From assembly GCA_025457915.1 (NCBI GenBank), contig JALOTL010000008.1, forward strand, positions 62,001 through 126,000: a DNA stretch of 64,000 nt, read 5' to 3'. A program made the position numbers and the translations under genes. Origin of the DNA: Spirochaetota bacterium (GTDB lineage: Bacteria > Spirochaetota > UBA4802 > UBA5550). Below are positions 9,973 through 62,387 of the stretch, one piece after another; the first letter of the stretch is position 1; each line of letters begins with the position of its first letter. Under the pieces are notes generated by a model, which made no database searches, was not told the DNA's origin, and saw only the letters and a program-made list of their open reading frames with translations.

Positions 9973-10046
9973 GGCGGAGTAGCTCAGTAGGTTAGAGCAC
10001 ACGGCTCATATCCGTGGTGTGGGGGGTTCGAGTCCCTCCTCCGCTA
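9973..10046 (+). tRNA. Elongator tRNA-Met (CAT)
   Basis: Acceptor GGCGGAG pairs with CTCCGCT, with one G-U pair at the end. The D arm reads GTAGCTCAGTAGGTTAGAGC, the anticodon loop is CTCATAT and the T arm has TTCGAGT. The D arm and acceptor start closely resemble bacterial elongator tRNA-Met. The alternative for a CAT anticodon, lysidine-modified tRNA-Ile2, fits less well but cannot be fully excluded by eye. CCA is not encoded. It is probably co-transcribed with the initiator tRNA. Confidence 0.88.
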
Positions 10047-10192
10047 ATTCCAGCCTTCTTTTATTTATTGCCTCAATAAAAAATTTCTCGCAAATTCCAG
10101 AACAATGGTTATTATTGTTTGCCTGGAAAAATACTCCCGCCCGTAGCGGGATGTATTCGCGCTCTTCAATTAACAACACGGAGGACATGATA

Positions 10193-10465: not shown

Positions 10466-10490
10466 CCCCTGTCAATTCCGGAGGCATGGC

Positions 10491-39566: not shown

Positions 39567-41501
39567 TTATTGCCCGAGAAAAACCAGGACCTTCCTTATG
39601 TTGTTTTTTGCCTTGATATGATCCGGGTCGATCGCTATGACCTTTCTCCATTCATTGATTGCCCTTTTAAAGTCATTGCCGGCATAATAGCTGATGCCCA
39701 TATAATAATATTTCCTGACCAGTTCCTCCTCCCTCGGGGTCAGTTTTTTCCTGGCCTGGGCGACATCGATGTCGCCGCCCCTGAGCTGGGTCTCAATCTT
39801 GTTGACGCTTATTGCCGCCTTAATGTTGTTCGGGTCCTTTCTTACTATCCACTGGAATTCAGCAAGGGCCTTTTTCGCGTTCTCAAGGCCGCCTGCCTGG
39901 TAGTAATTCATAGCCAGCCCGTACCTTCTTTCAATCTCCTTCTGGTCGGCCTGGTTGACCGCGGCGCCCTCGCCCTCCCTTATCCCGCGGTTCGCCTCTG
40001 CAAGGAAACCGTCTATGCCTGGATATTTCGGGTTCATGGACTTGACTATCTCGAAGGTCATCTGCGCGGCCCGAAATTCCTTTCTCCTCAACTGCTCCCT
40101 TCCCTCCGCGGCCTTTTTTTCCACGGATCCGCCCGTCGCGGCTGGATTGATCTTCAATTCGCACTTCGCGATGTATTCGTTCGCCATCCTGTTTTTTGGA
40201 AACAGCTTGAGTATCTCGTCCCACTTTCTTTTTGATTCGGCATAATTGCCCTTATCATAAAGGCTTCTTCCGGAAATTACAAGCGAATTTATCAGGTTGT
40301 AATATGGGGAATTTTCGTCCACCCTCTCCTCCTCCTCGATAAGCCTGGCCTCCCTCGCCCTCTTGAGATACTCCCTGGCCTGGGTGTTGTTTTTATCTAT
40401 GGAAAGTACCGTTACGAATGAATTGATCGCCTCTTTATATCTCTGGCGGGAGTATGATATGATGCCCTCCTGGAATATCTGGTTGATCTCCTGCATCTTC
40501 CTGGTTTTCTGCCTCTCCATGAAGTCCTTTCTCAGCCTGTCGATCGAGGCCAGCCTCTCTCTCGCGTCCCTGTAATTCTTGACGGCCGCCAGGCAGCTCT
40601 CGAAATCGTCCTGGGCCTGGTCGAAATTGTTGTTTTTCAGATTATTGATGCCGGACAGATAGAATTCCTCGGCCTGCCTGGCCCTCTGGTCCGAAAGCTT
40701 CCTCTCCTCGAGTATCTCGTCTATCTTCTCGATCATGTCCCTGGCGTCCCTGTTCTGGGGATCAAGCTTCAGAGCCTGCGCGAATTCATTGCGGGCCGGC
40801 CTGTACCTTTTAAAGTTGAAATGGTCCCTGCCCCTGGCCATGAATCCCCTGATGGTCTCGAACTTCAGCCTGTTGTCTATGGCCAGCCTGCAGTTTCTAA
40901 CGCCGTCCTCGGCCTCCCTGTCCCTGGGGATATAGGACAGAATGTCCTTCCAGATCTTCAGGGCGCCCTCGTAATTTTCACGCTCCATCTCTTTAACCGC
41001 GGCCGTTTTCAGTGCTTTTACCTTCTCCCTTATGGCTTTGGACAGGCGGACTTTTTTCTCGGCCGCGGTTATGTCGATTTCGAGCCTTTTCATGTCGTCG
41101 AGCATGTCCTTCAGGTCCTGGTCATTCGGGTCTATCCTGTAGGCTATTTTGTAGTTTTCGATCGACTCCTTCCCGGACTTGATCCCGGCCTCGAGCGTAT
41201 CATCGTCGGCCAGCCTCCTCCTGGCTATCCTGTAATCCAGCTTCATCCTCTGGAAGGCCAGGTCCTTTTTCTGCTTGATCTCGTAAACCGCCTCTATCTT
41301 CTGCTGGACCTTTTCATTTTCCGGGTCGTCCCTCAGTATCTCTATCCACAGGGATACGGCCTTGTTGTAGTCCTTTTTTTCAAAATGCTCCCGGGCCTGC
41401 CTGTCCAGCTCCCTCCCTGTTTCCAGCGCACTGCCGTCCGGCTGCGCCAGCCAAAACAGGAGCACGGAAAAAAAGGCGATGGATATCGCATTGATTTTCA
41501 T
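39567..41501 (-). CDS. Exported tetratricopeptide-repeat protein
   Basis: This 644 aa protein has a signal peptide (MKINAISIAFFSVLLFWLAQ) and then at least eight TPR-like helical hairpins, for example AREHFEKKDYNKAVSLWIEI, INNLKNNNFDQAQDDFESCL and GRSLYDKGNYAESKRKWDEI. It ends with YYMGISYYAGNDFKRAINEW. It is rich in Arg, Lys and Glu, with coiled-coil-like linkers. TPR proteins scaffold complexes; its pairing with the SpoIIE phosphatase suggests a sensor partner in the periplasm. No enzymatic motif was seen. Confidence 0.88.
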   Translation of the reverse strand: MKINAISIAFFSVLLFWLAQPDGSALETGRELDRQAREHFEKKDYNKAVSLWIEILRDDPENEKVQQKIEAVYEIKQKKDLAFQRMKLDYRIARRRLADDDTLEAGIKSGKESIENYKIAYRIDPNDQDLKDMLDDMKRLEIDITAAEKKVRLSKAIREKVKALKTAAVKEMERENYEGALKIWKDILSYIPRDREAEDGVRNCRLAIDNRLKFETIRGFMARGRDHFNFKRYRPARNEFAQALKLDPQNRDARDMIEKIDEILEERKLSDQRARQAEEFYLSGINNLKNNNFDQAQDDFESCLAAVKNYRDARERLASIDRLRKDFMERQKTRKMQEINQIFQEGIISYSRQRYKEAINSFVTVLSIDKNNTQAREYLKRAREARLIEEEERVDENSPYYNLINSLVISGRSLYDKGNYAESKRKWDEILKLFPKNRMANEYIAKCELKINPAATGGSVEKKAAEGREQLRRKEFRAAQMTFEIVKSMNPKYPGIDGFLAEANRGIREGEGAAVNQADQKEIERRYGLAMNYYQAGGLENAKKALAEFQWIVRKDPNNIKAAISVNKIETQLRGGDIDVAQARKKLTPREEELVRKYYYMGISYYAGNDFKRAINEWRKVIAIDPDHIKAKNNIRKVLVFLGQ

Positions 41502-41701: not shown

Positions 41702-41773
41702 GCGGGTGTAATTCAGTGGTAGAATGTCAGCTTCCCAAGCTGAACGTCGAGGGTTCGATCCCCTTCACCCGCT
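41702..41773 (+). tRNA. tRNA-Gly (CCC)
   Basis: The cloverleaf is clear: acceptor GCGGGTG with CACCCGC, anticodon stem TCAGC/GCTGA around the loop TTCCCAA (anticodon CCC), T arm GAGGG-TTCGATC-CCCTT, and discriminator T at 41773, as expected for glycine. CCA is not encoded. Its T arm and 3' part recur imperfectly at 46526-46546, and an integrase-like stump lies 108 bp downstream. Confidence 0.93.
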
Positions 41774-42632
41774 CATCTAAGTCTTGATTAATTCAGGACT
41801 TGTAAAAGCTACCGGACCGCCGGCGCTTCTTAAAACTAACAAGTGTGATAAAAGTGTGACATGTCACAGGGAGGATTAAGATGACGCCGGGAAAACCTTT
41901 CTCATTATTCAAACGAAAACGCATTTATTACGCTTGCTTTAAATTGCCTGATGGTCAATGGAGTACTCACAGAACAATCAGATCGGACCTGAACATATCC
42001 ACACTTACTCCAGGCTGTTAAGGTTCATCGATAAAGGCATAGTCAAACCCCAGCTTATATATTTTCTTCAGTCAATGAATCAGTGTGCTGCCTCAACTTT
42101 CTTATTTTTATTATGGAAAAAGCAGCCGCCAACGCGCAGGAAATTATAAAAGCCAGGACATCAGGGTCTTTTCCATTTCAGACAGGGAGCATGCCGGTCC
42201 GCGCTGAATACCATACAAGGCCCTTAACCAGCGAGATACAACCGCCCGGCCAGCCTTCTTTTACGCCTCGTATCGTTTTCATATGAGCCTCACACACTGG
42301 TTTTTTACTTATTCATATTCTATATCCTTAAAAAAATAATTTTTGTCCGACAATACCGGCTGTTATTTCAGGATAGATTCATTCCCTGGAAAAAATTTCA
42401 TTCTTTGTGTTTTTTTCATTTCCAGGCGTATCCTTTTAATCCCGATCGTCGTATTACTATTATATTCATGATAGTTTTAACAGCTGAATAATTGCAATTA
42501 TCGGGGAATTCCGCATAATTGGAATATAAATCAGCATGCCGGCCCGCTGGATATGATAAATTTGCGGTAACCGGCATCGTAAAAAATCGAACTGAAATAA
42601 CAAAGAAACAAATACTGAAAAAGGAGTACGTG
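41774..42632. other. Non-coding stretch after tRNA-Gly with an integrase stump
   Basis: About 860 bp. It contains the truncated recombinase-like frame at 41881-42021. Beyond that, 42022-42632 is AT-rich and has only short frames (63 and 67 codons) without a ribosome-binding site or recognisable content. Decayed remnants of the integrase are the likeliest filler, but I could not align them by eye. Confidence 0.55.
41881..42021 (+). pseudogene. N-terminal stump of a tyrosine recombinase/integrase
   Basis: A good AGGGAGGATTAAG precedes the ATG. The frame gives 46 residues beginning MTPGKPFSLFKRKRIYYACF and continuing KLPDGQWSTHRTIRSDLN before a stop at 42019-42021. The pattern PFSLFKR..IYY..F....G resembles the first strand pair of spirochetal phage-type integrases; the catalytic domain is missing. 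Its place and direction just behind a tRNA gene fit an integrase of a tRNA-targeting element. The call rests on pattern memory, not a database hit. Confidence 0.5.
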
Positions 42633-43100
42633 ATGAACACCATGATAAACGAAAAAGCAAACGAACTACTTCCGGTCCAGAACGAAGTCCCAAATTGCTT
42701 CGTGTGCGGGCAGGAAAATCCGCACGGACTGAAACTCAGGTTCACGAAAGAATCCGAGACGTCCCTGAGCACCGAGTTCACGCCGCCGGATTACTGGACC
42801 GGCTGGGGGAGTATGATGCACGGCGGGTTCCACGGCCTCCTGCTGGACGAAACCATGTCATGGATCGCGTTCGGCCTCATGGACGTCAAGGGGTTCGTCA
42901 CCAAGGAGATGACGGTAAAATACATCCGGCCGGTATACGTCGGGCGAAAACTGAAAGTGACCGGGCACCTTGAAGAAGATACCGGCAGGGAAATCCGCAC
43001 CCGCGCGGAAATCAGCGATGAAGAAGGAAACGTACTGACCATGGCGCAGGCGACCCTCGCGCGCGTGGATATCGAAAAAATGAAAAAAATCATGCAATAA
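42633..43100 (+). CDS. Hotdog-fold thioesterase, PaaI-like
   Basis: This 155 aa protein has the N-terminal NCFVCGQENPHGLKLRF typical of one PaaI-like subgroup. The hotdog core follows (MMHGGFHGLLLDETMSWIAF) and then VTKEMTVKYIRPVYVGRKL. Such enzymes hydrolyse acyl-CoA or acyl-ACP thioesters. The long open frame begins at 42519, but AAGGAG lies 6 nt before the ATG at 42633 and homology starts soon after it. It sits inside the suspected island, 81 nt before the polyferredoxin gene. Substrate unknown. Confidence 0.85.
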   Translation: MNTMINEKANELLPVQNEVPNCFVCGQENPHGLKLRFTKESETSLSTEFTPPDYWTGWGSMMHGGFHGLLLDETMSWIAFGLMDVKGFVTKEMTVKYIRPVYVGRKLKVTGHLEEDTGREIRTRAEISDEEGNVLTMAQATLARVDIEKMKKIMQ

Positions 43101-43181
43101 GACATCCCGGACGACAGATGCGGGTTCATCCGCGGATTCGAGATTCAAATCAACATTTTAAAAGGAACGGGTTCAAGTTTT

Positions 43182-44216
43182 ATGAAAAAAGTTTTATTGT
43201 TAACAGGCGTTTTTTTATTCGTTTTCGGAATCGCCTGTTTTACAAAGGAAGTTACGGGCCTGCTCATCCCCATCGTGGGCTATTATTATTTTCGCGGAAT
43301 TCCCGCGGAGCCGGACAGAATGCCGGACAAATTTTTTGGCGTCTACAGTCATGTTCCATATGTACTTATCGGAGCCGGACTTCTGTTTATGATAATCTCG
43401 CTGTTACTTCCCAAAAACGGCGATGAAACCCCGATAAAATGGAATTTCAAATTACCGAAATTCAAAACATGGAAAAAAAGACGGACCGTTTTTCAACTGG
43501 TCGTTCTCGGATTGATTGCCGTGCATATCATCCTGTTTACGCTTGGCATCACCAGTATAAAAGCCATCTGCCCGGCCGGACTTGCCATAGGAGCGATAAA
43601 AGGAACTTTCGGGATTGCGGCCGTCTTCTGGTCATTCATTCTTATCGGTACAATTTTCGGAGGAAGATTTTTATGCGGCTGGCTCTGCGTTTTTGCGCCA
43701 GTCCAGGAAAATGCCGACAATATTTTAACCGCCACGGGAAACAGATCCAAGGCAAAAAAACACCTTCACCCGGCATTTATCTATACCGCCGCTTTCATAT
43801 TCTGGGGAAGCGTCATTTTTAATATTATCATGAACATCAACAACCTGACTTTCGATATTTACAGCGGCACCTCTAACCCGATCGGCAATATCTGGATGTT
43901 TATCGCCGGGCTTTTAACAGTAATTCCCCTGGTGATGTTTTTTATTTTCCTGTGGGGCAGCAGGTTTTTCTGCAGAAACGTATGTCCCATCGGCGGGCTT
44001 CTCAGGATATATTCCAGGTTCAGCTTTTTAAAGATAAAAATCGACCATGATAAATGCACGGATTGCTCGGCCTGTTCCAGGAATTGCCAGATGAACGTCA
44101 ATATTGACGGCTACATCAAGTCAGGGTCCGCGAGCATAAAAGACGGCGACTGCATCGTGTGCGGCGACTGTATCGATAATTGCCCCAAAAAGGCCTTGAG
44201 TTTCGGCATCGCGTAA
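43182..44216 (+). CDS. NapH/MauN-type membrane polyferredoxin
   Basis: This is a 344 aa inner-membrane Fe-S protein with about six hydrophobic helices. Two membrane-edge cysteine motifs of the NapH family are present (FLCGWLCVFAPVQE and FFCRNVCPIGGLLRIY). A C-terminal ferredoxin part has CTDCSACSRNCQ and CIVCGDCIDNCPKKAL. Relatives pass electrons from quinols to periplasmic reductases or maturation systems. No partner reductase is adjacent, so its donor and acceptor are open. The base composition is more AT-rich than that of neighbouring core genes, in keeping with an island origin. A strong terminator follows. Confidence 0.85.
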   Translation: MKKVLLLTGVFLFVFGIACFTKEVTGLLIPIVGYYYFRGIPAEPDRMPDKFFGVYSHVPYVLIGAGLLFMIISLLLPKNGDETPIKWNFKLPKFKTWKKRRTVFQLVVLGLIAVHIILFTLGITSIKAICPAGLAIGAIKGTFGIAAVFWSFILIGTIFGGRFLCGWLCVFAPVQENADNILTATGNRSKAKKHLHPAFIYTAAFIFWGSVIFNIIMNINNLTFDIYSGTSNPIGNIWMFIAGLLTVIPLVMFFIFLWGSRFFCRNVCPIGGLLRIYSRFSFLKIKIDHDKCTDCSACSRNCQMNVNIDGYIKSGSASIKDGDCIVCGDCIDNCPKKALSFGIA

Positions 44217-44250
44217 ACGGGACCGGAGATAAAATTAAAATCACCCTAAA

Positions 44251-44290
44251 AAGACGCCGCGCTTAGATGCGCGGCGTCTTCATTTTTTTA
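44251..44290. terminator. Bidirectional intrinsic terminator
   Basis: The 12 bp stem AAGACGCCGCGC / GCGCGGCGTCTT has a 6 nt loop and is followed by CATTTTTTT on the plus strand. On the minus strand the stem is followed by TTTTTAGGG. It serves the convergent polyferredoxin and propeller genes. Confidence 0.88.
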
Positions 44291-44308
44291 TATCCTTGGA
44301 TGATACGC

Positions 44309-46324
44309 CTACAGCATGTACCACCGCCATCCGGCCGCGGGCGTATAGGCGCAGCAGTACAGGTTGTTGTCCGTACCTTGTGCCATTATGTTCACTCCGT
44401 ACTCACTCACAGACATGGTGGGCGCGGAGGCGATCGAGCCGCCCAGACAGGTCTTCACCCATCCGCTACCGGACGTCCAGGCATAATAATACAACTGGTT
44501 GTCCGTACCCTGAAATGCTATCGCAGTCAATCCGCCGTTTATAACAAGAGACGGCGCGGAGGCGATCGATCCGCCCTGGCATGTCCTGACCCAATTCGTG
44601 CCGGAGGTATATTCATACAGGTAAAGCTGGTTGTCCGTACCCTGAAACGCTATCGCGGTCAATCCGCCGCTTATAACAAGGGAGGGTGAGGATGCGATCG
44701 AGCCACCCTGGCATGTCCTGACCCAGCCCGTACCTGATGTATACTCATACAGGTAAAGCCGATTGTCTGTACCCTGAAAAGCTACCGCAGTCAAGCCACC
44801 GCTTATGGTCAGCGACGGCGGGGAAGCTATTGATCCTCCCAGGCATGTTCTGACCCAACCCGTATTGGCTGTTCCGGAATAGTAATACAGCTGATTGTCC
44901 ATCCCTTGAAAAGCAATTGCAGTCAACACCCCATTTATGGTCAGTGACGGCGAAGAGGCAATGGACCCTCCCAGACAGGTCCTGACCCAATCTGCACCTT
45001 GAAACCTATTGTAATAGTACAGCTTGTTATCAGTTCCCTGAAATGCCACACTCAAACTGGACAAGCCCAGACCATTGTTGAATGTTGCAATTGAAGGCGA
45101 GGAAGCAGCAGAACCGCCTATACTGGACCAGACCCAACCTGTAATCGATTGCCATATGCAGGAGTATAATTGTTTATCAGTTCCCTGTACGGCTACGTTT
45201 ATTCCACCACAACCAAGGGCCATACTTGGTGATGTATTGACTGTGTAAGAATCAACATAAATTGATCTAGCACCTCCAGAATTAGTACCATCGGAAAGGG
45301 AAACGTTTGTGCCATTCTTCCAATAGCAACTTAAAAGGGTGCCGGCAGAAGGAAAATTTCCAATTCCAGCTATATATGCATCATTGCCAGATACATAAAT
45401 CGAATTAGCAGTTCCTCCCTGAGATCCGTTCATTAAAGAAACCGCAATACAGTTCTTCCAATAGACAGCGTTTCCATTTATTTCTCCAGCAACATAAATA
45501 TCGCTGCCGGATACATATATTCCACTTGCAGAAGCATATTGGGATTCATTTGTAAGAGGAACAGCAACGCCATTTTTCCAATACTTAGCAATTGAGGTGG
45601 TTCCAATATTTTCAGATCCAGCGATATATACATCATTGCCGGATACATAAACCGATGTGGCAAAACTCCCATTTATAAGTGGAATTGCTGTGCCATTCTT
45701 CCAGTATTTCGCTGCCCAGCTTGTCCCATTCCATTCGAATCCAGCAACATACACATCATTGTTGGATACAAATATGGAATTGGCTTGCGCAGTCTTTGTC
45801 CCATCAGTTAACGAAACAGGAACGCCGTTCTTCCAGTATTTCGCAACATCTTCTGTTCCGTTAGACTCATATCCCGCAACATATACATCATTGTTTTGTA
45901 TATTAATTGAACAGGCATAAGCCATATGAGATCCATCAGTAAGAGAAATTGCCGTTCCGTTTTTCCAGTATTTTGCAACATCATTTGTTCCGTTAGATTC
46001 ATATCCTGCAACGTATACATCATTGTCAAAGACGTATATTGATGAACCTACTGCATCATTGGTCCCATTACTGAGAGAATACTTCGTTCCATTTTTCCAA
46101 TATATGGCCGCCATATGGCTTCCAACATATTCATAACCCGCCACATAGACATTACCATTGTTCGTCCCTATCCCTACATCGCTACCGCCCACCAGATTGT
46201 TGGCGATCCCCATCAATTTACTGCCCAGACCGAATCCGCCCCTGCCATCTCCGCCGCACCCGGATATGGCAAAAATCAGTGCCGTGAATACGGCAAAAAC
46301 CCAGCATTTTACCATTATTTTCAT
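44309..46324 (-). CDS. Lipoprotein of two tandem seven-repeat beta-propeller modules
   Basis: This 671 aa protein has a signal sequence with lipobox AISGC (Cys23). Module one (residues about 45-350) holds seven repeats of roughly 42 residues built on VYVAGYE.NGT...KYWKNGT..SL.DG. Module two (about 370-671) holds seven repeats with QGTDNQLYLYEYTSGTGWVR followed by TCQGGSIASSPSL, like PLL/DUF346-type propellers. Each set of seven would close a seven-bladed propeller. Part of the sequence, especially module one, is visibly more AT-rich than its neighbours. AGGGGAGGAAT stands before the start. Likely a surface-exposed binding protein; ligand unknown. The two repeat types differ, so it is a fusion rather than one expanded array. 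Confidence 0.8.
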   Translation of the reverse strand: MKIMVKCWVFAVFTALIFAISGCGGDGRGGFGLGSKLMGIANNLVGGSDVGIGTNNGNVYVAGYEYVGSHMAAIYWKNGTKYSLSNGTNDAVGSSIYVFDNDVYVAGYESNGTNDVAKYWKNGTAISLTDGSHMAYACSINIQNNDVYVAGYESNGTEDVAKYWKNGVPVSLTDGTKTAQANSIFVSNNDVYVAGFEWNGTSWAAKYWKNGTAIPLINGSFATSVYVSGNDVYIAGSENIGTTSIAKYWKNGVAVPLTNESQYASASGIYVSGSDIYVAGEINGNAVYWKNCIAVSLMNGSQGGTANSIYVSGNDAYIAGIGNFPSAGTLLSCYWKNGTNVSLSDGTNSGGARSIYVDSYTVNTSPSMALGCGGINVAVQGTDKQLYSCIWQSITGWVWSSIGGSAASSPSIATFNNGLGLSSLSVAFQGTDNKLYYYNRFQGADWVRTCLGGSIASSPSLTINGVLTAIAFQGMDNQLYYYSGTANTGWVRTCLGGSIASPPSLTISGGLTAVAFQGTDNRLYLYEYTSGTGWVRTCQGGSIASSPSLVISGGLTAIAFQGTDNQLYLYEYTSGTNWVRTCQGGSIASAPSLVINGGLTAIAFQGTDNQLYYYAWTSGSGWVKTCLGGSIASAPTMSVSEYGVNIMAQGTDNNLYCCAYTPAAGWRWYML

Positions 46325-46525
46325 ATTCCTCCCCTTTAATACAAGTATTCAGGGATGAGTTCCCCTACGAATAAGCGTCGTTTTTCGCAAAAAAAAGACG
46401 AAAAATTTTTAGGTTTTTTGCAAATTTTGATGAAAATGGAGGGAATTTTCCGGTCTGGTTATCGAAAAAATTATAAGTTCAGGAATGATAAAAAAACATT
46501 ATTCAATGATCGGGTTTACGGCGCC

Positions 46526-46546
46526 GGGGATTCTATCCCCTTCACC
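46526..46546 (+). repeat. Imperfect copy of the tRNA-Gly T-arm/3' segment (possible att site)
   Basis: Compared with 41749-41769 in the tRNA, 18 of 21 bases agree and the last 12 (ATCCCCTTCACC) are identical, in the same orientation. It also forms a small hairpin (GGGGAT/ATCCCC). Agreement breaks down just before the tRNA's CGCT end, so the copy is partial. Confidence 0.45.
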
Positions 46547-46555
46547 GGGCCCGCA

Positions 46556-48922
46556 TCATTTTCTTCCGAATATCAGCCTGTAGGTATTGGCAGTCCTGAA
46601 AAGAAAAAGCCTGAAATAAAAATCGATTTTCCTGCCGAAACCCAGCGCTCCCACCGCAAGGACCGCGGCAGCCAGGCACAAAAAGGCGATGAAAAACCTT
46701 CCTGCCAGCCTGTCCCTGACGTACTCGAACAGTCCGCCCAGCGGGGAAACGCGCGAATAGGGATCTATCCTGACCCGGTGATAGCCCGGTTCGGTCCACC
46801 TGTATCCCGCTCCTCCTTCAGCATACCTGCACCTTATCCCTATGAAATAATCGCCGCCGCCGAATTCAGTGAACTCCACCGCGCTCCCCCTGTGGTTCAC
46901 CACCGCGGGCACGTTCCCGATCGCCCTTGCAACGCTTATCGAATACCCGTCGACCGCGCGCGGGTCCAGGTTCCTCACGCCGATGGACGCCCTGAAGGAC
47001 GAATCGCCGAAGGGTTTGGAGACGTCAAACGGAAAGGTCAGGAAAACCGAAGGCCGCCCACCGCCGCCCGGGACCTCTCCCCTTGCGATCTTCTTGATCT
47101 TCTCTATGTCGATTTCCTCAGCCCTGCCCACTATGAAATAGTAATTAGCCACCTGCCCGATCTGGTTGGTCTTGTCCACGGCCGCGAGGGTGAAGAAATA
47201 TCCGCCCTCCTTGAGGCCGGAAAAGGCCTTTTCAAAATCGGTCGTGAAGACGTCCGGCCTTTTAAAAGACTGCCTGGAAATGTTGTAAAGAAAGCCCTTC
47301 AGCCTCTCCCTGCCGTCAACGTTCCACCTGAACAGCGGGGAATCCGAATCCGCGGCCCTGCCCTCGGGATGCGTCGGGGACGTTATTGAAGGCAACGGCA
47401 GCGGATTGGAGCAGACCTGAAGCCTGTAATGGACAGTCCTGCTCGCGTTCCCGGCGCCGTCGAATGATCTTATGTGAAAATAGTGGACGCCGTCCTCGAG
47501 CTCGGGCGTGGTTTTCGCGCCGACATAGGGCTTCTCGTTCATGATCGGGGGATTGGTATAGGGGTTCCCGTCGACCATTACAGCGTAGCCTGCTATTCCC
47601 GACTCATCGGGCGGGGATTTCCAGTTAATCACGGCCACCGGGCGCCTGGACCAGGCGTTCACCGGGTGCGTCGCGGAATAGACGTTCGGGGGCTCCACGT
47701 ACACGTCGGAGGGCCTCGCCATTATAACACCCCCCTCCTCCCAGAAAACGACCACCCGGGGGCCGGAGGCTATTATCGCCGGGTTCCTCGCCGGGATTTT
47801 TCTTTCCGACACCTTCACCTCGGGAAGCGATTCCTTCTCCCTCAGGGGGAACCTCCTTGCGAACACCCTTTCCGATCCCTCCCTCACGTCGTACCAGGAG
47901 ACGAAGACGTCATTGTCGGAAACGGCGACCCTCGGAAAATAGCAGTTCGCGCTGGTGGTTGAAACGGAAAACGGCTTTTCCTTCCAGTCACCGCCGAAAT
48001 CCAGGCCCCTCCTGAGCTTTATGGACCAGCTCCTGTCAGCGTTGCTCTGGTATGCCAGGTAAAGCACGTCCCTGTGCAGGGCCAGCGAGGGGGATACGCT
48101 GCTTCCCCTTCCCTCGGTGATCTTCCTTATCCCGCTCCAGCTCTTCCCGCCGTTTTTTGACCTCATGAAAAAAAGGTCGTCCGTATAATACTCGCCCTTG
48201 CCCTGCCATACCATGTAGATGTTTCCGCCTGACATGCAGATCGCCGGAAAAAACGCTCCCCTGACGCTGCCGTCCAGCTTCACAAGGTAACCGGTATTCT
48301 CAAGTCCCGCGGCCGACTGACCCATGGCGTGATAAAGCCTTATGCCCTCGCCGTCATCGCCCAGGTAGAACAGGTGAAGGACGCCCGCGTCGTCGTAATA
48401 GACCCTGGGCATCATCTCCATCCTGAATCCCAGGTTGATCCTTGCCGGTTTTGACCAGGTCGCTCCCATGTCCTCTGAGAACGAAGAGAATATCCGGCTG
48501 GATGATTCGGCCTCGATATAATCCTCCCATGCTATGGTTATCCGGCCGGAGCCGGAAACGGCCGCGGATGGATTGCCCGCGATCCTGGGATTGACCGCGG
48601 ATATCCTTGCCGGCGCGGAAAAAGAACCGCCCGCGTTGAATGAAACCACGGCCCAAACGGACGGCATCCCGCCGGCGGTCTCGTATACCGCCGCCATGAG
48701 ATTGCCCCTGGAAGTGACCCTGACGTTCCTGGCCCTTGCATCGTAAGCGGAAATCTGGAAGATCCTCTCCCATCCGGCAGGGTTGGTTGAAAGCTCCACC
48801 CCCTGGAAAACCAGCACGCTTGCGAGAGAGAAAAGGAACAAAAATATCAGGGACCACATCAGCTCCCTGAAGTGTTTCATCTTGAAGTATGATCGCAATA
48901 TATATGATAGAATTCTGTTCAT
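46556..48922 (-). CDS. Large membrane-anchored protein with Asp-box and Fn3-like parts
   Basis: This is a 788 aa protein of unknown function. An N-terminal membrane segment (LMWSLIFLFLFSLASVLVF) is followed by a sialidase-like beta region with Asp-box-type motifs (SSFSEDMGATWS, RSKNGGKSWSG). One or two fibronectin-III-like modules follow (DGVHYFHIRSFDGAGN, GGYFFTLAAVDKTNQIG). A C-terminal transmembrane helix (FIAFLCLAAAVLAVGALGF) ends in a basic tail. With a helix at each end, the main part is extracytoplasmic and both ends are anchored. A second ATG 14 codons in is possible; neither start has a strong ribosome-binding site. Its stop codon abuts the tRNA-like repeat at 46526. Confidence 0.75.
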   Translation of the reverse strand: MNRILSYILRSYFKMKHFRELMWSLIFLFLFSLASVLVFQGVELSTNPAGWERIFQISAYDARARNVRVTSRGNLMAAVYETAGGMPSVWAVVSFNAGGSFSAPARISAVNPRIAGNPSAAVSGSGRITIAWEDYIEAESSSRIFSSFSEDMGATWSKPARINLGFRMEMMPRVYYDDAGVLHLFYLGDDGEGIRLYHAMGQSAAGLENTGYLVKLDGSVRGAFFPAICMSGGNIYMVWQGKGEYYTDDLFFMRSKNGGKSWSGIRKITEGRGSSVSPSLALHRDVLYLAYQSNADRSWSIKLRRGLDFGGDWKEKPFSVSTTSANCYFPRVAVSDNDVFVSWYDVREGSERVFARRFPLREKESLPEVKVSERKIPARNPAIIASGPRVVVFWEEGGVIMARPSDVYVEPPNVYSATHPVNAWSRRPVAVINWKSPPDESGIAGYAVMVDGNPYTNPPIMNEKPYVGAKTTPELEDGVHYFHIRSFDGAGNASRTVHYRLQVCSNPLPLPSITSPTHPEGRAADSDSPLFRWNVDGRERLKGFLYNISRQSFKRPDVFTTDFEKAFSGLKEGGYFFTLAAVDKTNQIGQVANYYFIVGRAEEIDIEKIKKIARGEVPGGGGRPSVFLTFPFDVSKPFGDSSFRASIGVRNLDPRAVDGYSISVARAIGNVPAVVNHRGSAVEFTEFGGGDYFIGIRCRYAEGGAGYRWTEPGYHRVRIDPYSRVSPLGGLFEYVRDRLAGRFFIAFLCLAAAVLAVGALGFGRKIDFYFRLFLFRTANTYRLIFGRK

Positions 48923-55395: not shown

Positions 55396-57256
55396 ACTTC
55401 ACTTCGTCCTCTACCGGTCCGGCAGGTTTCCCGGTAATTTCTATCTTCAGCATCCTTCTGAGGTCTTCGAGGCTCCTTGGAGAATCCGAATCCTCCAGGC
55501 GGCCGAGAATCGCATAGATCTGCTGCGGTTCGGCCTTTCCCTTCACTTTGATTTTCTGCATGGGCTCGGCCCTGAAGATGTCCTTAACCGATTCATATGT
55601 TTCCTCGGACACCAGTATGTCGGTGCCGAAGGGCTTGTTGAGAGACTCGATCCTTGAAGCAAGGTTGACGGTGTCTCCTATAACGGTATACTCCATTCTG
55701 TCCTCGGTTCCGATCTGACCCGCGAGAACCGGACCGGTGTTGATGCCGCATCCGATCTTGATTACCGGCTTCTTGTCGCCTCCGCGCCCCACGTTGAACT
55801 CCATCAGTGCCTTTCTCATCATGAGGGCGCCGTTTATCGCGTTCTCAGTATCATTGCCCCTTGAAACCGGCGCCCCCCATACGGCCATGATGGCGTCCCC
55901 TATGTACTTGTCGACGACCCCGAAGGTCTGGTTGACGCAATTTACCATTCGCGTCATGTACTGGTTCAGAAACTCGACCACCTCTTCCGGTTCAAGCTTT
56001 TCCGAAATGGCCGTGAACGATCTTATGTCGGAAAAGAAAACCGTGGCGTTTTTACGCTCGCCGCCCAGCTTGATTTCACCCCTCAGCACCTGTTCGGCGA
56101 TTTCCTTGTTTACGAATTTGCCGAAGGCATCCTTCATCCTCTCGCGCTCCTCGAGGCCGCGGCCCATGTGCACGAAGGAGCTTGTAAGATCGCCTATTTC
56201 GTCCTCGGTGGTCGGCACGATATTGATCCTGAAGTTGCCTTTCTCTATCTCCTTGGTGGCCCCGAGGAGTTCGATGATCGGGGTCGTTATCGTCTTGCTG
56301 AAAAAATATACGATCAGTATTGCCAGGTTGAGGACGATGACCATGATGAATATGTTCCTTCTCTGGATGTTGAACACCTCTTCAAAGGCCTTGTCCTCCT
56401 CGACGGATGCTATCACGCCTATGCCGCTGAATCCGGTTTTTTTAAACGAACCTATGTAATAAACGCCCTTCTCGTTCCTGTACCTGGTCTGGCCGTTGTC
56501 CAGGCTGCTCTTCTTCATCATCTGCACTATGGGAAGGTTTATGTAATTAACCTGCGACATCACAAGCCTGCTGTCGGTGTGAGTTATTACGTCGCCGTGT
56601 TCATTGACCATGAACTTCTCGGTGATGCCTGAACTTTTAAATGCCGACATGAGCTTGTCGAGCTTCATGCATCCGACAAGGATGGAATTTACCGTATTGC
56701 CTGCCCTCTGGAACGGCATTCCGATCAGGACGGCGGGGGACTTCATGTTTGACGATATATTGATTACGATGACATCGTTACCGAAGGACTTCATGAGGGA
56801 TTCGCCGTTTGCGGAAAAAAAGGCGTCGATCTCCCCCTGCTTTAACTGGTTCTGGCCGAAAAATGACTTGTTGTAAATTGAGTTCACGATCCGTATTGTT
56901 TTTCCATCAGGATTCCTGTAGGCGATGCCGACGGAGATGAGGTTGGGATCGTTTGCGAAAAAGAGGTCCGTGAACAGGTTTTTCTGCTCGACGTGAAGCA
57001 TCGCAGTTCCCATCAGGTTCATCTTTTCAACAATCGCGATAAAATCGGTCTGCACCTTGAGTGCGAGAATGTCGGCAACGCTCTGGTTGTTTTCCTTGAT
57101 TCGAATTTCACTGTCATTCTTGAAAAAAATCGTGGCCAGTATTATCATTCCCGTAAGTGAGGTTATGATGATCATGGAAATGATGGTTATCAATTTTGAC
57201 CGGATTTTCATCCTGGAAAAAAATTTTTTAAAAATGTTTTTGCCGCCGTCTTCCAT
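55379..57256 (-). CDS. Receptor-type class III adenylate cyclase
   Basis: This is a 625 aa protein. Two transmembrane helices (residues about 20-42 and 298-318) enclose a Cache-like sensor of about 255 residues, followed by HAMP (TTPIIELLGATKEIEKGNF) and a class III cyclase domain from about 400. Both metal-binding aspartates are present (FFSDIRSFTAI and YIGDAIMAVWGAP), and the EYTVIGDTVNLASRIE block completes the site. AGGGG precedes the start. It sits directly upstream of, and overlaps, the FecR-PEGA-PQQ gene. ATP rather than GTP use is likely by family but not proven. Confidence 0.92.
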   Translation of the reverse strand: MEDGGKNIFKKFFSRMKIRSKLITIISMIIITSLTGMIILATIFFKNDSEIRIKENNQSVADILALKVQTDFIAIVEKMNLMGTAMLHVEQKNLFTDLFFANDPNLISVGIAYRNPDGKTIRIVNSIYNKSFFGQNQLKQGEIDAFFSANGESLMKSFGNDVIVINISSNMKSPAVLIGMPFQRAGNTVNSILVGCMKLDKLMSAFKSSGITEKFMVNEHGDVITHTDSRLVMSQVNYINLPIVQMMKKSSLDNGQTRYRNEKGVYYIGSFKKTGFSGIGVIASVEEDKAFEEVFNIQRRNIFIMVIVLNLAILIVYFFSKTITTPIIELLGATKEIEKGNFRINIVPTTEDEIGDLTSSFVHMGRGLEERERMKDAFGKFVNKEIAEQVLRGEIKLGGERKNATVFFSDIRSFTAISEKLEPEEVVEFLNQYMTRMVNCVNQTFGVVDKYIGDAIMAVWGAPVSRGNDTENAINGALMMRKALMEFNVGRGGDKKPVIKIGCGINTGPVLAGQIGTEDRMEYTVIGDTVNLASRIESLNKPFGTDILVSEETYESVKDIFRAEPMQKIKVKGKAEPQQIYAILGRLEDSDSPRSLEDLRRMLKIEITGKPAGPVEDEVKYEILE

Positions 57257-57578
57257 TTAAACCCCTGGGAATTTTATTCTGCTGTGATATAAAAAAACCG
57301 CAGCAGTTTAATTGCTGTTCAATAAAAAAGCCAGTACAGAATATCCAGAAAAATCAGAGTCATGAATATTATGGAATACGCAATAAAAATGTTAGTAAAA
57401 ATTTTCCTCATTTTTAAAACCGCCGGTCCTGGATATTGAAATTTTCATTCTAACGGGAATCCAATCAAACATCAATGAAAATACATTTTTGTAGGTCCCG
57501 GCCTCTTTCCGGATGCCGGAACCTACAAAATGTAAATAATCATTCTCTTAAAAAAATTTCAAGACATTTTTAGGGGAT
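57257..57578. other. Intergenic region with inverted repeat
   Basis: 322 bp between the cyclase gene and a 60-residue frame. It is AT-rich. The only structure is the near-perfect inverted repeat at 57484-57532. The cyclase promoter should lie here, but no consensus pair stands out. Confidence 0.5.
57484..57532. repeat. Imperfect 18-bp inverted repeat
   Basis: Left arm CATTTTTGTAGGTCCCGGC (57484-57502) and right arm GCCGGAACCTACAAAATG (57515-57532) pair apart from one mismatch and one extra T, with a 12 nt loop. There is no T-run after the stem on either strand, so it is not a standard terminator. Confidence 0.6.
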
Positions 57579-57761
57579 TCAGCGGGGTTTTCTGACATCC
57601 TCTATCATTTCAACCATTATATTGACGTGTTCGGCAAGAAGTGGAATGAATTCTGAAGGATTATCCGATTCTTTGATCATGTAGTATAGATCGGCAATCT
57701 GTTTGCGAAGCCTTTTATCGACTGCAATTATTCTCGCGATTTGCTCTTGCTTGTTATCCAT
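57579..57761 (-). CDS. Small helical protein of unknown function
   Basis: A 60-residue, mostly helical frame (MDNKQEQIARIIAVDKRLRK, then YMIKESDNPSEFIPLLAEHV). Charge pattern and codon use look protein-like and no other gene covers the spot, but only a weak AAAGAT precedes the ATG. No family recognised. Confidence 0.5.
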   Translation of the reverse strand: MDNKQEQIARIIAVDKRLRKQIADLYYMIKESDNPSEFIPLLAEHVNIMVEMIEDVRKPR

Positions 57762-57837
57762 ATCTTTAACACCATATTCCGTATATTAATAAAAACCTCC
57801 GGCATGGGCCCTGCAGAGCATATGCCCCCTGCTGGAA

Positions 57838-57868
57838 TAAAAAATTCACCCCGGTATACGGGGTGAAT
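57838..57868 (-). terminator. Intrinsic terminator of the 57903 gene
   Basis: On the minus strand ATTCACCCCG / CGGGGTGAAT form a 10 bp perfect stem around a 5 nt loop, followed by TTTTT. It lies 35 nt past the stop of the exported-protein gene. Confidence 0.88.
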
Positions 57869-57902
57869 CTATCATGCCTCATATCATACAGTCCCGGCAA
57901 GT

Positions 57903-59186
57903 CTATTTCTTTTCCGGCTGCTTGACGGAATCGTTCTTTTTGACGTCCGGTGCCGGCTTATCATCCGCGACTTTATTCCTCGACTCCGCGTCCTTTTTTT
58001 CATCCGCAGGCCTGTCGGTCTTTTTATCCGCCTCCCCTTCCTTCTTCTCCCCGGTCTTTTTAAGATCGTCCTCGACCCTGATCTTCCCCATGAAACCCGA
58101 AATCATCGATTCCCTTGAAAGCCTGGCATAATTATCGAGAAGGTGGACCTTGTACTGGTTATAATCGAACCTGTCTTCTGATTCCGGCGCGGGTTTTTCG
58201 CCCTCGTGCTTCTCCTGGGGACCGGAGCTGAGCACCTCGAACGCGGCCGTTATCAGCTTGTAATTGAAATCGCTGACGTATTTTCTCATGATATCCTCGG
58301 CCTTGTCGAATTCATAGTTGAGCAGGTACCTCCCGGTCCTTGTCTCCTGCCTGTATCTGACCCTCTTTTCCACGTTGCTGTCGAACGTCTTTTTTTCAAC
58401 GGACGCAGCTTCATTCTTAACTTCCTTCACCGCGCCCGCATCCTTTGTCTCCGCGGGCGTCTTTTCCGTTTTCTCGTCCTTTCTTTTTTCAAATTCATCG
58501 TATGTAATTGAAAGTTCCTTGATGAAGTCGTCATCCTTGAGATCGAGAAAACGGTTCAGAAAAATATTCCCGTCTTTCCTTTCATTCTTAAGAAGCTGTA
58601 TGTATATGGCCTTTTTTACCTGGTCCTTCTGGCTCTCAAACATGGCGAGGAATCCGTATCTCTTGGCCCTTCTGGCCATTTTAATCCCCTCGACGTATTT
58701 ATACAGCTTGTATGAATGAAGCTTCGGATTTGAAGACTCGCCGATGGTAAAATGAGTCCAGCTGACGGTCCTGTCCCTGTATCCGAGAGTGAGAAAAAGC
58801 CTCGCGCGGGGATTTTTCGACTTGATTATTCCAGGAGCGAGTTTATCGAGGATGTTTTTCGAGTCCTCGAGGTAGTAGTTCTTGAGCATGTCCTCGTAGA
58901 GCTTCGACATTTCAGTCTGCGAGGAATAAACCCTTTTGTAGGTCCTCCTGTAATCACATTGCAGGTACGCGACATCGGCATTGAAATGCTTTTCATATAT
59001 TTTAAAGAAATCATCTTTTTTACTTTCACCGAAATTCGTCATGCATACGTTGACAAAATCGATGAACTCCTTGTTCTCGCGCAATATTCTTTCAGACGTG
59101 GTCTGGTCGGCAAACGGATAAAGGCTTGACGACGACAGGATTATCGCCGCCGCGGCCAGACATACGGAAATATAGGTTTTTTTCAT
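57903..59186 (-). CDS. Exported protein with charged C-terminus, unknown function
   Basis: This 427 aa protein has a signal peptide (MKKTYISVCLAAAAIILSSSSL). A helical, Lys/Tyr-rich body follows (FFKIYEKHFNADVAYLQCDY), with a low-complexity charged break (KRKDEKTEKTPAETKDAG) in the middle. A second helical part and a long Lys/Glu/Asp/Pro tail ending VKKNDSVKQPEKK complete it. No known motif was seen. The tail is probably disordered. It is followed by a clear intrinsic terminator. Confidence 0.75.
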   Translation of the reverse strand: MKKTYISVCLAAAAIILSSSSLYPFADQTTSERILRENKEFIDFVNVCMTNFGESKKDDFFKIYEKHFNADVAYLQCDYRRTYKRVYSSQTEMSKLYEDMLKNYYLEDSKNILDKLAPGIIKSKNPRARLFLTLGYRDRTVSWTHFTIGESSNPKLHSYKLYKYVEGIKMARRAKRYGFLAMFESQKDQVKKAIYIQLLKNERKDGNIFLNRFLDLKDDDFIKELSITYDEFEKRKDEKTEKTPAETKDAGAVKEVKNEAASVEKKTFDSNVEKRVRYRQETRTGRYLLNYEFDKAEDIMRKYVSDFNYKLITAAFEVLSSGPQEKHEGEKPAPESEDRFDYNQYKVHLLDNYARLSRESMISGFMGKIRVEDDLKKTGEKKEGEADKKTDRPADEKKDAESRNKVADDKPAPDVKKNDSVKQPEKK

Positions 59187-59274
59187 ATGGCAGAGCTACC
59201 CCTGAATAATTAATAATTTTTCATGAATTCCCGATCATATTCCATGATCGATGGACGACTTTTACCCGTAGAAA

Positions 59275-59793
59275 TCATTTAACTTCAAAGTCCTTTATTG
59301 CAACGCTCTCATTGTCCAGATAAGCCCTGACCCTGTATTTTCCGGGAAGTTTGAAGTATTCATCCGGAATATAGCAGGAAATCTTCTGGAAATCCCTGTT
59401 TATTTCATAGGATATCTGCTTGTAATGAGCGTAATCGGTATCTTTAAATACCTCGATTTTAATTATGAAGACGCCGGCATCCAGCTGTTTTTTATACCTG
59501 CTTATCATGAAATATAATTTCTCGCCGGCCTTGAATTCGGTCTTGCTCAGCCCTTCATCCGCTGAAGTAATTTCCGAGTCCGAAATGATGAAACTGGCCT
59601 TTCCGTAAACGGATTTGTAATAAAAAAAATAGGCCGCGATACCGATCAAAATCAATACAATTACTGCTTTTAAAAAATGCCCCAGTTTTTTCCTGTCGCT
59701 TATGAATTCCATCCCGGCTCCCGCCAATCTTCCAAGCCTGCCGCCTGCGCCACCGGACGATCTGACCTGATTTGTATTATCACCGCTTGCCAT
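59275..59793 (-). CDS. Single-pass membrane protein with beta-rich exported domain
   Basis: This is a 172 aa protein. A Gly/Ser/Arg-rich cytosolic leader (SSGGAGGRLGRLAGAG) precedes a transmembrane helix at about 40-58 (FLKAVIVLILIGIAAYFFYY). About 110 beta-rich residues follow (GEKLYFMISRYKKQL; YRVRAYLDNESVAIKDFEVK), which look like one Ig-like sandwich. GGAGG stands 7 nt before the start. No family recognised. Confidence 0.75.
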   Translation of the reverse strand: MASGDNTNQVRSSGGAGGRLGRLAGAGMEFISDRKKLGHFLKAVIVLILIGIAAYFFYYKSVYGKASFIISDSEITSADEGLSKTEFKAGEKLYFMISRYKKQLDAGVFIIKIEVFKDTDYAHYKQISYEINRDFQKISCYIPDEYFKLPGKYRVRAYLDNESVAIKDFEVK

Positions 59794-59992
59794 TTGTATT
59801 CCTCCGGAGCGAAAGCGCCATTTGTTTAAAAAACAATGGTTTTTTCTATATAATATATATCGTAAATAATCCGTAAAACAAATAATTTATTTTTTTTCTC
59901 CGGCCTAATAATCAATTTTGCCGGGCAATCCCGACGGCAAATCCGGCGCCCCCCGGCCCATTTCCGGCATACCTGCCCTGAACTTTTTTATA

Positions 59993-60020
59993 TTGACATG
60001 ATTTTAATCAATGTTATTAT
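59993..60020 (+). promoter_or_regulatory. Promoter of the 60056-glnA-oxidoreductase operon
   Basis: TTGACA at 59993-59998, a 16 nt spacer and TATTAT at 60015-60020 (five of six matches). The expected start, about 60027, leaves a 29 nt leader with GGAAG before the ATG at 60056. Confidence 0.6.
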
Positions 60021-60055
60021 TTGTGTATTCTATTTTATCCTGTTCTGGAAGATAA

Positions 60056-61054
60056 ATGAACTCCGAAGCGACTCAATCTGAAAACAACATGCTCATGATC
60101 AAGGGAAGGTTTAAATCAACCGCAACGAACCTTTACGGCCAGTTCATGATTACGTTTAATACAGTTCAAAGCATTGAAACCTGCAATGCCATAATATCCT
60201 CCTTTTCAAACCTGTACGACATAGAGCCCCATACGGAATGGAACATCTGGGAAGAAAAAATAGCCGATCTCAAATGGAAGGGCAACTTCAATAAAAACAT
60301 GACAAGCTCCCTGATGGACAGTTTCAGGGGCCTTTCGGAAAACAAGGGTTCGATGTCGATGCTATACGAACACGCCTATGATTATAATTACGACGAACTG
60401 GACATGATCCTTTTCGACATGATAAACAGGCTTATAAAGGATAAAAATCTCGTACTCGAAAGCGGGATCCAGGAGGTTACGCTCCTGGAATACCAGAAGG
60501 TCAGGGCCGACAGGAGCAAGCCGAAGGAAAGCAGTGAGCAGAAATCCCTGGCCGAGGAATACTCCCTGGAGGAAGGCTCGGTGATACTGCAGGTCAAACC
60601 CATCCTGGCCCCCGTCAGCGGCAAGCCCATATACGAGATGAAAATCGGCGACAAGATCATAATCAAAATCATAGCAAACACCGACAGGTCGAATTATTTC
60701 ATCGACCTCATGAACCTCAGGGACGCCAACGAGATCAAGCCTGTTCCGGCCGAGGTGATCGACATCAGGACCCTTCCTGAAAAAAATAATCCCCTGGAAG
60801 TCCTGACATTGATCGGACCCGGCATATACGGAAGGCTGATCGAAGAAGAAAAACAGGTCAAGCTCAGGATGTATGATCCCCTGGTCGATGCGTCCATAAA
60901 AACAAAAAAGGCCGGCGCCCCTGCCCCTAAAATTGAACCGGACCAGAAGGATAAGGAATCCAAGCCCATCTTCTCAAAAAGCATCCTGGCCATGTTCGCC
61001 CTGTTTGTCTTAATTCTCACTCTGTTCATTATCCTTATTTTTATGAGCATATAG
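60056..61054 (+). CDS. Tail-anchored protein of unknown function
   Basis: This is a 332 aa protein. There is no signal peptide. The N-terminal 120 residues form an alpha/beta domain (MLMIKGRFKSTATNLYGQFM), then a Lys/Glu linker. A beta-rich part follows (VILQVKPILAPVSGKPIYEM; IGDKIIIKII), and a single hydrophobic helix sits at the extreme C-terminus (ILAMFALFVLILTLFIILIF). The latter makes it a tail-anchored inner-membrane protein with the bulk in the cytosol. It lies 28 nt before glnA behind a shared promoter. No family recognised. Confidence 0.75.
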   Translation: MNSEATQSENNMLMIKGRFKSTATNLYGQFMITFNTVQSIETCNAIISSFSNLYDIEPHTEWNIWEEKIADLKWKGNFNKNMTSSLMDSFRGLSENKGSMSMLYEHAYDYNYDELDMILFDMINRLIKDKNLVLESGIQEVTLLEYQKVRADRSKPKESSEQKSLAEEYSLEEGSVILQVKPILAPVSGKPIYEMKIGDKIIIKIIANTDRSNYFIDLMNLRDANEIKPVPAEVIDIRTLPEKNNPLEVLTLIGPGIYGRLIEEEKQVKLRMYDPLVDASIKTKKAGAPAPKIEPDQKDKESKPIFSKSILAMFALFVLILTLFIILIFMSI

Positions 61055-61082
61055 CCTTCACCCATTCATCAAGGACAAAGAC

Positions 61083-62387
61083 ATGGATCACGACAAGGAA
61101 TATATTCTCAAGCTGGCCCACGAAAGCAACGTGAAATTCATAAGGCTCTGGTTTACGGATATACTGGGTTTTCTCAAAAGCTTCGCGATAACGATTGAAG
61201 AGCTTGAAGACGCCCTGTCGGAAGGCATCCGCTTCGACGGCGCCACTCTGCAGGGATTCATCCGCACGGACGAACGCGAAATGATAGCCATGCCTGACGC
61301 CTCCACTTTCAAAATACTTCCCTGGAGACCCAAGGAGGATTCGGTCGCCAGGATGATATGCGATATCTACCAGGTAGACATGACTCCGTACGAGGGGGAT
61401 TCCAGGTACATACTTAAAAAAAATCTCAAGGCTGCCGCCGACGAAGGCCTTACGTTTTATACCGGGACGGAGATAGAATTTTTCCTTTTTAAAAATTCCG
61501 TCAGGCCGGAGGTGCTCGACAGGGGCGGATACTTCGACCTCACCCCGCTCGACACAGCGGCGGATTACCGGCGTCAGATAGTCCTGACAATGGAGGAAAT
61601 GGGCATAGACGTCATCTCCTCGCATCATGAAGGCGCTCACAGCCAGCATGAGATCGACCTGAGGCATGAAGACGCGCTGACATCGGCGGACAACATCATG
61701 ACGACCAGGCTGATCATAAAGGAGATCGCGCAGATCAACGGGATACACGCTTCATTCATGCCGAAGCCCTTTACGGACCAGAACGGCTCGGGCATGCACC
61801 TGCATCAGTCCCTGTTCAAGGAAGAGGAGAACATTTTCTTCGACAAAAAGAAAAAATTATTCCTGTCGCAGACCTGCGAGCATTACATCGCCGGCCTCCT
61901 CAGGCACTGCAAAGAATTTTTCGCGATTACCAATCAGTGGATCAACTCGTACAAGAGGCTGCATAAGGGGTTCGAATCTCCTACGCATATGACCTGGAGC
62001 AGCACCAATCAATCGGCGCTCATAAGGGTCCCGCTTCTGCGATCGAACAAGCCCGGATCCATGAGGGTTGAGCTCAGGAGTCCGGACCCGTCATGCAATC
62101 CATACCTGGCATTTTCCGCCATTCTCGCAGCGGGCCTCAAGGGAATAAAGGAAAAATACAGCCTGCCCCAGGCGGTGGATTCCATTCCCGACGGGCCGTC
62201 GGCCGAAAGCCATGTTCCGAGACAGCTCAGTGAAGCGCTTCAATACTTCAGCGACAGCGATCTTATGAAAAACACGCTCGGCCCGACCATCCACGGCAAA
62301 TTCATACAGAACAAGCTGCTGGAGCTTGAACAGTACAACAGCTACATCACGGATTATGAAATCAACACCTATTTCCCGCTGCTCTGA
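61083..62387 (+). CDS. glnA: Type I glutamine synthetase
   Basis: It makes glutamine from glutamate, ammonia and ATP. The 434 aa protein has the beta-grasp part (IRFDGATLQGFIRTDEREM) and active-site blocks GTEIEFFLF, HHEGAHSQHEIDLRHEDAL and MPKPFTDQNGSGMHLHQS. RVELRSPDPSCNPYLAFSA supplies the conserved arginine and glutamate region. The adenylylated-tyrosine motif of enterobacterial enzymes (NLYDLPP) is replaced by KEKYSLPQA, and the chain is shorter (about 434 against 470), as in the GSI-alpha class. Control by adenylylation is therefore unlikely. AAGGAC precedes the start. Confidence 0.93.
   Translation: MDHDKEYILKLAHESNVKFIRLWFTDILGFLKSFAITIEELEDALSEGIRFDGATLQGFIRTDEREMIAMPDASTFKILPWRPKEDSVARMICDIYQVDMTPYEGDSRYILKKNLKAAADEGLTFYTGTEIEFFLFKNSVRPEVLDRGGYFDLTPLDTAADYRRQIVLTMEEMGIDVISSHHEGAHSQHEIDLRHEDALTSADNIMTTRLIIKEIAQINGIHASFMPKPFTDQNGSGMHLHQSLFKEEENIFFDKKKKLFLSQTCEHYIAGLLRHCKEFFAITNQWINSYKRLHKGFESPTHMTWSSTNQSALIRVPLLRSNKPGSMRVELRSPDPSCNPYLAFSAILAAGLKGIKEKYSLPQAVDSIPDGPSAESHVPRQLSEALQYFSDSDLMKNTLGPTIHGKFIQNKLLELEQYNSYITDYEINTYFPLL

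Follow-up and report, generated by a model that had tools for sequence, protein, structure and literature searches.

What does the DNA between a tRNA-Gly(CCC) gene and its downstream neighbour in a spirochaete genome represent, and how did it come to lie there? The locus is part of a 64,000-nucleotide stretch (the window) of contig JALOTL010000008.1, positions 62,001 to 126,000 of the forward strand, from the Spirochaetota bacterium assembly GCA_025457915.1, whose 50 contigs add up to 3.66 Mb and which is 96% complete. A preliminary description, made from the sequence alone, had proposed a 4.8-kb island at this tRNA, with an integrase-like stump, three cargo genes and a partial tRNA duplicate at the far end. 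With high confidence we regard the block as the remnant of a tRNA-targeting integrative element of the anticodon-loop class, which has lost most of its integrase and now holds three accessory genes. The comparison set comprised 59 genomes, none from the window's own genus, while 19 others belong to its family; searches for cargo proteins covered the 58 genomes besides the source genome. Coordinates of the features are collected in Table 1.

If the block was inserted, related genomes should show the site without it, with tRNA-Gly joined directly to the gene now ending at position 46556, as the preliminary description had pointed out. This was the case in nine of the 19 other family genomes (G003, G005, G006, G009, G010, G012, G017, G018 and G019), where the tetratricopeptide repeat (TPR) protein gene, tRNA-Gly(CCC) and the BNR-like repeat protein gene (BNR gene) follow one another on a single contig and the stop codon of the BNR gene falls between 2 bases inside and 46 bases beyond the end of the tRNA. 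In G020, which belongs to another family, the tRNA and the BNR gene are likewise adjacent (71 bases). Relatives carrying the same genes in the same place, which would have spoken against an insertion, were not seen, as no cargo gene was found at the tRNA-Gly locus of relatives among the matches listed (E <=1e-5). Genomes left uncounted were G001 and G004, with both neighbours adjacent and no tRNA recognised between them, G007, with neither neighbour gene found, G008, with the tRNA cut by a contig end, and G013, with a gap of 1.2 kb between tRNA and neighbour in which no repeat was found.

Other relatives are occupied at the same site. The last 44 bases of the genome's own tRNA are copied beside the BNR gene in G002, G011 and G015, with 44/44 bases identical and identity continuing 0-3 bases further to the left and 2-4 further to the right; in these three genomes the tRNA itself is on a separate contig from the BNR-side copy. 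An integrase lies 118 bases past the tRNA in G002, and the tRNA-Gly(CCC) island of G011 has, as read by eye, an integrase with a different break, of which a few codons of the N-terminus and part of the C-terminus are left. Loss of the integrase with the adjacent DNA kept is found in two genomes at this site, the window's and G011. The other DNA at this junction in G014 and G016 was also considered as integrase-occupied and was dropped, as no att repeat was detected (threshold 17/21 in G014; one 16/21 match in G016). That DNA (G014:C7, L179-L180, 20.5 kb; G016:C179, L181, 4.2 kb) holds metabolic-looking genes, and by eye both have a cysteine-synthase-like and an Rrf2-like gene.

At the window's own junction, the tRNA gene at the island edge was confirmed by ARAGORN, and the partial duplicate at the other end is as it had been described: positions 46526-46546 match tRNA positions 41749-41769 in 18 of 21 bases in the same orientation, and the final 12 are all identical. 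When both strands were searched for matches of at least 18/21 to any 21-mer of the tRNA, this fragment was the sole place in the window besides the tRNA itself, and the next-best match was 17/21 at 38740 on the same strand. When the 231-base intergenic stretch was dinucleotide-shuffled 2000 times, the best match was 17/21, seen once. Local alignment lengthens the fragment to 25 bases, 21 of them identical (46522-46546), with a score equalled in 0 of 5000 dinucleotide shuffles of the same region. The fragment also sits where relatives have their tRNA 3′ end, beside the same gene, and the tRNA end, if the fragment were complete, would fall 4 bases from the stop codon of that neighbour. The ungapped match stops at 46546 and the tRNA end is reached only with a small indel, through which the fragment may extend that far; because of its location at the relatives' tRNA-end position, 4 bases from the neighbour's stop codon, the short match is most simply read as decay. 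A displaced tRNA fragment is present downstream in the same orientation, decayed but beyond chance. The preliminary description had named a T-arm-like hairpin arising by chance as its weak point, which is contradicted by the result of the 5000 shuffles and by the position of the fragment.

The integrase stump is an open reading frame (ORF) of 46 amino acids (aa), 41881-42018 plus stop, and its first 32 residues are 65% identical to a 381-aa integrase of G012 (E 1e-10). This similarity places the stump in the tyrosine recombinase integrase family. Across 16 aligned relatives the positions R, K, H, R, H and Y, which we take to be the conserved ones of tyrosine recombinase integrases, are invariant or nearly so, and the stump lacks them; one integrase relative matches PHROG integrase families. 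Of the loci outside the window that the stump matches, 29 were retrieved. In 18 of them a tRNA is followed 86-251 bases further on, in its own direction, by an integrase that is open or cut by a contig end, and in one (L059, a weak match with an internal stop) the distance is about 200 bases; no tRNA was found at the other 10, some of which are at contig ends. The stump of the preliminary description is thus real, at a spacing of 106 rather than 108 bases from the tRNA. The proposed loss of the integrase was mostly borne out as well but is not total, since about 33 codons from its start and the upstream arm persist. Pieces of integrase past the N-terminus were searched for in the island with 20 relatives, and among the matches listed, which are those for L032-L035 and part of L036, the best value was E 0.35.

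Between the tRNA and the stump, the element retains its left arm, which has a fold z of -3.2. The 106-base spacer of the window had 11 matches in relatives besides itself. Seven of them are directly upstream of an integrase of this kind (G003, G012 with two, G005, G015, G045 and G002), the match in G035:C56 is likewise just upstream of one, and the match in G023:C56 had no tRNA and no integrase within the 3.5 kb examined; the other two matches are in G040 and G032. For 13 of 20 spacers, which were picked for resemblance and in some cases left-trimmed, an alignment was made; a nine-pair hairpin (hairpin 2) close to GAAGCTACCGGACAACCGGCGCTTC occurs in 12 of these 13, being absent from G010, and four of its pairs are changed on both sides across the aligned spacers. 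Among the seven unaligned spacers, hairpin 2 was found in G017 (19/24 bases), and the other six matched at only 11-14/24. Its 22-base core is also present, 95-100% identical, in G023:C56 (L238) at 1813-1834, G040:C5:24581-24602 and G032:C47:898-919. A repeat of period 11 (at least 8/9 bases) occurs in 16 of 20 spacers, where 300 shuffled sets gave 0.29 rows on average and never more than 3, with the reservation that the spacers are partly related and the rows not independent; other periods from 6 to 20 gave at most one spacer row each. On the attR side no repeats of 9-14-base period were found. These tandem repeats are putative arm-type sites of the integrase, and the hairpins may insulate the integrase from transcription of the tRNA. 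The shared left-arm module could help to find such elements once the integrase is gone.

Nine islands of the integrase group were inspected for a far repeat, and a tenth, in G035, was added. Four of the nine have one of 42-44 bases, which spans the tRNA from its anticodon loop to its end, and for the remaining five none was found within the sequence fetched; of these five, the G005 piece has no complete tRNA and the G014 integrase is not beside a tRNA. Three small islands bounded by repeats of a tRNA 3′ half (G023, G010 and G035) contain a phage major capsid gene. The G023 island also has a replication-initiation-like gene and a tape-measure gene, the G010 island has a match to Nu1-like small terminase below the family cut-off, and the G035 island has genes that by eye seem replication-like and prohead-protease-like. 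Neither portal nor large terminase was found among the searched ORFs of these islands, a search that did not include every ORF, and the 13.9-kb island of G020 gave no match to the capsid of the small ones. The three islands are candidate phage satellites.

Table 1. Features of the tRNA-Gly(CCC) locus in the window and islands of the same integrase family in other genomes
Feature	Location	Strand	Length	Basis or remark
TPR protein gene, conserved left neighbour	39567..41501	-		Profile and relative searches
tRNA-Gly(CCC), intact; integration target, attL side	41702..41774	+		ARAGORN
Element left arm	41775..41880	+		80% over 83 bases, E 9e-13, to island left arm in G003
Left arm hairpin 1	about 41778-41802			
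Left arm hairpin 2	about 41806-41828			
Left arm 11-base tandem repeat, AAGTGTGATAA/AAGTGTGAC	about 41841-41860			Followed by purine-rich stretch before integrase start
Integrase stump	41881..42021	+		About 33 N-terminal residues of tyrosine integrase, unrelated tail, stop; relative searches
Stretch without recognised gene or remnant of compared islands' genes	42022..42632	.		Nothing better than E 0.01
Hotdog-fold (4HBT) thioesterase	42633..43100	+	155 aa	4HBT, E 2.6e-8
NapH-like membrane ferredoxin protein	43182..44216	+	344 aa	TIGR02163, E 1.8e-25
Repeat-rich predicted lipoprotein	44309..46324	-	671 aa	One DUF346 stretch above cut-off, E 9e-6
Decayed displaced tRNA 3′ end (attR)	46522..46551	+		46522-46546 aligned 21/25; last five bases by position only
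BNR-like repeat protein gene, conserved right neighbour	46556..48922	-		Open throughout; profile and relative searches
Island at tRNA-Gly TCC, G023, with capsid gene	L195 (G023:C8) 182-8869		8,688 bases (8.7 kb)	42-44-base repeat found
Island at tRNA-Gly TCC, G010, with capsid gene	L206 (G010:C38) about 2420-11891		9,472 bases (9.5 kb)	42-44-base repeat found
Island at tRNA-Met, G035 (tenth), with capsid gene	L244 (G035:C56) about 888-9521		about 8.6 kb	42-base repeat, one mismatch
Island at tRNA-Thr, G020			13,897 bases	42-44-base repeat found
Island at tRNA-Arg, G002			24,585 bases	42-44-base repeat found

The three cargo proteins were called correctly in the preliminary description as a hotdog thioesterase, a NapH-like protein and a repeat-rich protein, and the calls are backed by matches to 4HBT, TIGR02163 and DUF346. 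The thioesterase is 65% identical to a protein of G018:C76 encoded at a different genomic place, with no tRNA in the 10.8 kb examined there. The NapH-like protein matches TIGR02163 at 90 bits (cut-off 213), and its best relative outside its own genome, in another family, is 33% identical over part of the protein; a comparison with plasmids gave 17 records, all of them covering less than 80% of the query, with 24-29% identity among the 8 matches listed. The repeat-rich protein has a lipobox-like start, and its comparison by sequence with solved structures gave weak, unconvincing matches only. No defence families were found among the cargo proteins, and in PHROGs the thioesterase matched nothing and the other two proteins only families whose function is unknown. 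As plain guesses at their roles, the thioesterase would hydrolyse an acyl-thioester, the NapH-like protein would transfer electrons at the membrane and the lipoprotein would be a surface protein. Comparison of the gap at 42.0-42.6 kb and the gap on the right with 27 stretches, taken from viral contigs, other islands and loci of relatives, gave no match better than E 0.01. As for the flanks, the named relatives of the TPR protein are spirochaete metagenome assemblies at 21 of 22 loci, and the remaining one, a weak match, is labelled Omnitrophica.

The base composition of the island was compared with the rest of the window, as the preliminary description had suggested. Island G+C is 45.2% against 51.0% for the rest, with 3.4% of 237 overlapping tiles of the same length (step 500) at or below this value, and its tetranucleotide deviation exceeds that of every tile. 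G+C at third codon positions (GC3) is 0.56 in the NapH-like gene, 0.44 in the lipoprotein gene, 0.72 in the thioesterase gene and 0.72-0.73 in the core neighbours. The NapH-like and lipoprotein genes look foreign; the AT-richness of the island is not uniform, the thioesterase gene being like its core neighbours in GC3. Positions 55500-62000 of the window are also low in G+C (about 44% in 4.75-kb tiles), slightly below the island.

Several observations weigh against reading the whole block as the remnant of one such element. The anticodon-centred model predicts an attR of 44 bases (46508-46551), of which the left 14 are unrecognisable and the last five are assigned by position only. The left-arm module is not universal: of 20 spacers, 13 have hairpin 2 and 16 have the 11-base repeat. 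G014 and G016 hold other DNA at the junction, 20.5 kb and 4.2 kb in length, and because no att repeat was detected with these inserts, the tRNA-Gly/BNR junction also gains DNA by other means. Finally, no phage or satellite gene for replication, packaging or capsid was recognised in the window's island, and the GC3 of the thioesterase gene is core-like, so that the cargo may have arrived afterwards or on its own. The last points belong to an explanation by two events, which we consider possible but on balance doubtful: an integrase element would have decayed to its ends, and ordinary recombination would afterwards have brought the cargo into the space between tRNA and convergent gene, a junction that tolerates insertions. 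The mixed GC3 of the cargo, its PHROG results, the G014 and G016 inserts and the lack of any cargo match inside other named islands among the matches listed all agree with such a course, whereas the whole block between left arm and attR is like a single insertion and no second boundary was seen. The integrase insertion is common to this explanation and to the one we prefer, and our confidences in the two overlap.

Two further explanations are far less likely. The island might still move by means of an integrase supplied in trans, given that the left arm, putative arm-type repeats included, is well kept; we hold this to be very improbable, as much of the attR core is gone and the integrase family in the same genome consists of fragments and one weak C-terminal match. 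The fragments besides the stump are broken pieces on contig 44, and the C-terminal match is in an open frame of 307 aa, which we guess to be a Xer-type enzyme. One of the contig 44 pieces marks a second decayed insertion in this genome: at L239 (G000:C44) 9281-9562, an integrase fragment directly follows tRNA-Ala(CGC) and overlaps a stretch weakly similar to hairpin 2 (E 0.018). Least credible of all is that no mobile element was involved, the fragment being a chance T-arm-like hairpin and the genes ordinary lineage-specific ones. Taken alone, the fragment is indeed only 25 bases long, with a match that falls short of the tRNA end, but its position, the shuffle tests, the stump, the left arm and the empty sites are all contrary to this.

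The remnant of a tRNA-targeting element is supported by the empty sites, the attR, the stump, the left arm and the 44/44 copies in three relatives, and we propose the following course for it. A tyrosine-integrase element, of a family common in these spirochaetes, would have inserted at the anticodon-loop region of tRNA-Gly(CCC) and may have brought its cargo along. The gene would have been made whole again by the tRNA 3′ half that the element carried, and the 3′ half that the host had originally would have been displaced to the far end, beside the convergent neighbour. Later, the integrase except for about 33 codons would have been lost, together with whatever replication or structural genes existed, and the displaced fragment would have drifted. 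What is left, which holds three accessory genes and the left arm of the element, is probably fixed by now.

A wider reading can be offered only tentatively. The scar may have been left by a member of a lineage of spirochaete elements that target tRNAs, and in many of these the same left-arm module would recur, whether the target is a Gly, Arg, Val, Thr, Met or Trp tRNA; its small complete members would be capsid-bearing phage satellites, and members that lose the integrase would become permanent gene donors at a reused tRNA-Gly site. Equally tentatively, the hairpins in such a lineage would shield the integrase from tRNA transcription, and the two arm sites would lie 11 bases, about one turn of DNA, apart. 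No paper among those listed in our literature search seemed to treat the locus or such spirochaete islands, which is not proof that none exists. The event is ordinary in kind and the evidence for it is unusually clear: for an apparently domesticated insertion in a little-studied branch of spirochaetes, the state before (empty sites), the active-looking state (open integrases with matching ends) and the end state (the remnant) are all in hand.

Capsid-forming phage-inducible islands are small tRNA islands with their own integrase, replication and capsid genes. They resemble some relatives of the window's element and differ from the element itself, in which no gene for structure, packaging or replication was recognised. 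The nearer comparison is with the spirochaete family islands (among others those of G002, G003, G010, G012, G020, G023 and G035), with which the window's island shares the integrase N-terminus and, for most of them, the hairpins and 11-base tandem repeat of the left arm, although in the G010 island hairpin 2 is absent and the tandem repeat weaker. Where the far end of these islands was found, the att core covers the tRNA from its anticodon loop to its 3′ end. Unlike the window's island, they have a long open integrase, and three small ones have a capsid gene. Islander (PMC4383910) is a catalogue of tRNA-targeted genomic islands that tallies an anticodon-centred subsite class, describes damage near the 3′ end of the displaced fragment and sets island length limits of 2-200 kb, a range that includes the about 4.78 kb of the present island (41775-46551). 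As described there, the Islander integrase filter would reject the window's island because, unlike the catalogued ones, its integrase is cut to about 33 codons and its fragment is decayed. Empty sites in relatives, which do not belong to the Islander filters, were used here as an additional mark of such an island, and nine of the 19 other family genomes show them. In the intact tRNA gene, the same-orientation displaced 3′ fragment downstream, the integrase reading away from the tRNA and the anticodon-centred subsite, it is like the islands described there; this class of integrative island is already known, and the block in the window is a new, decayed member of it.

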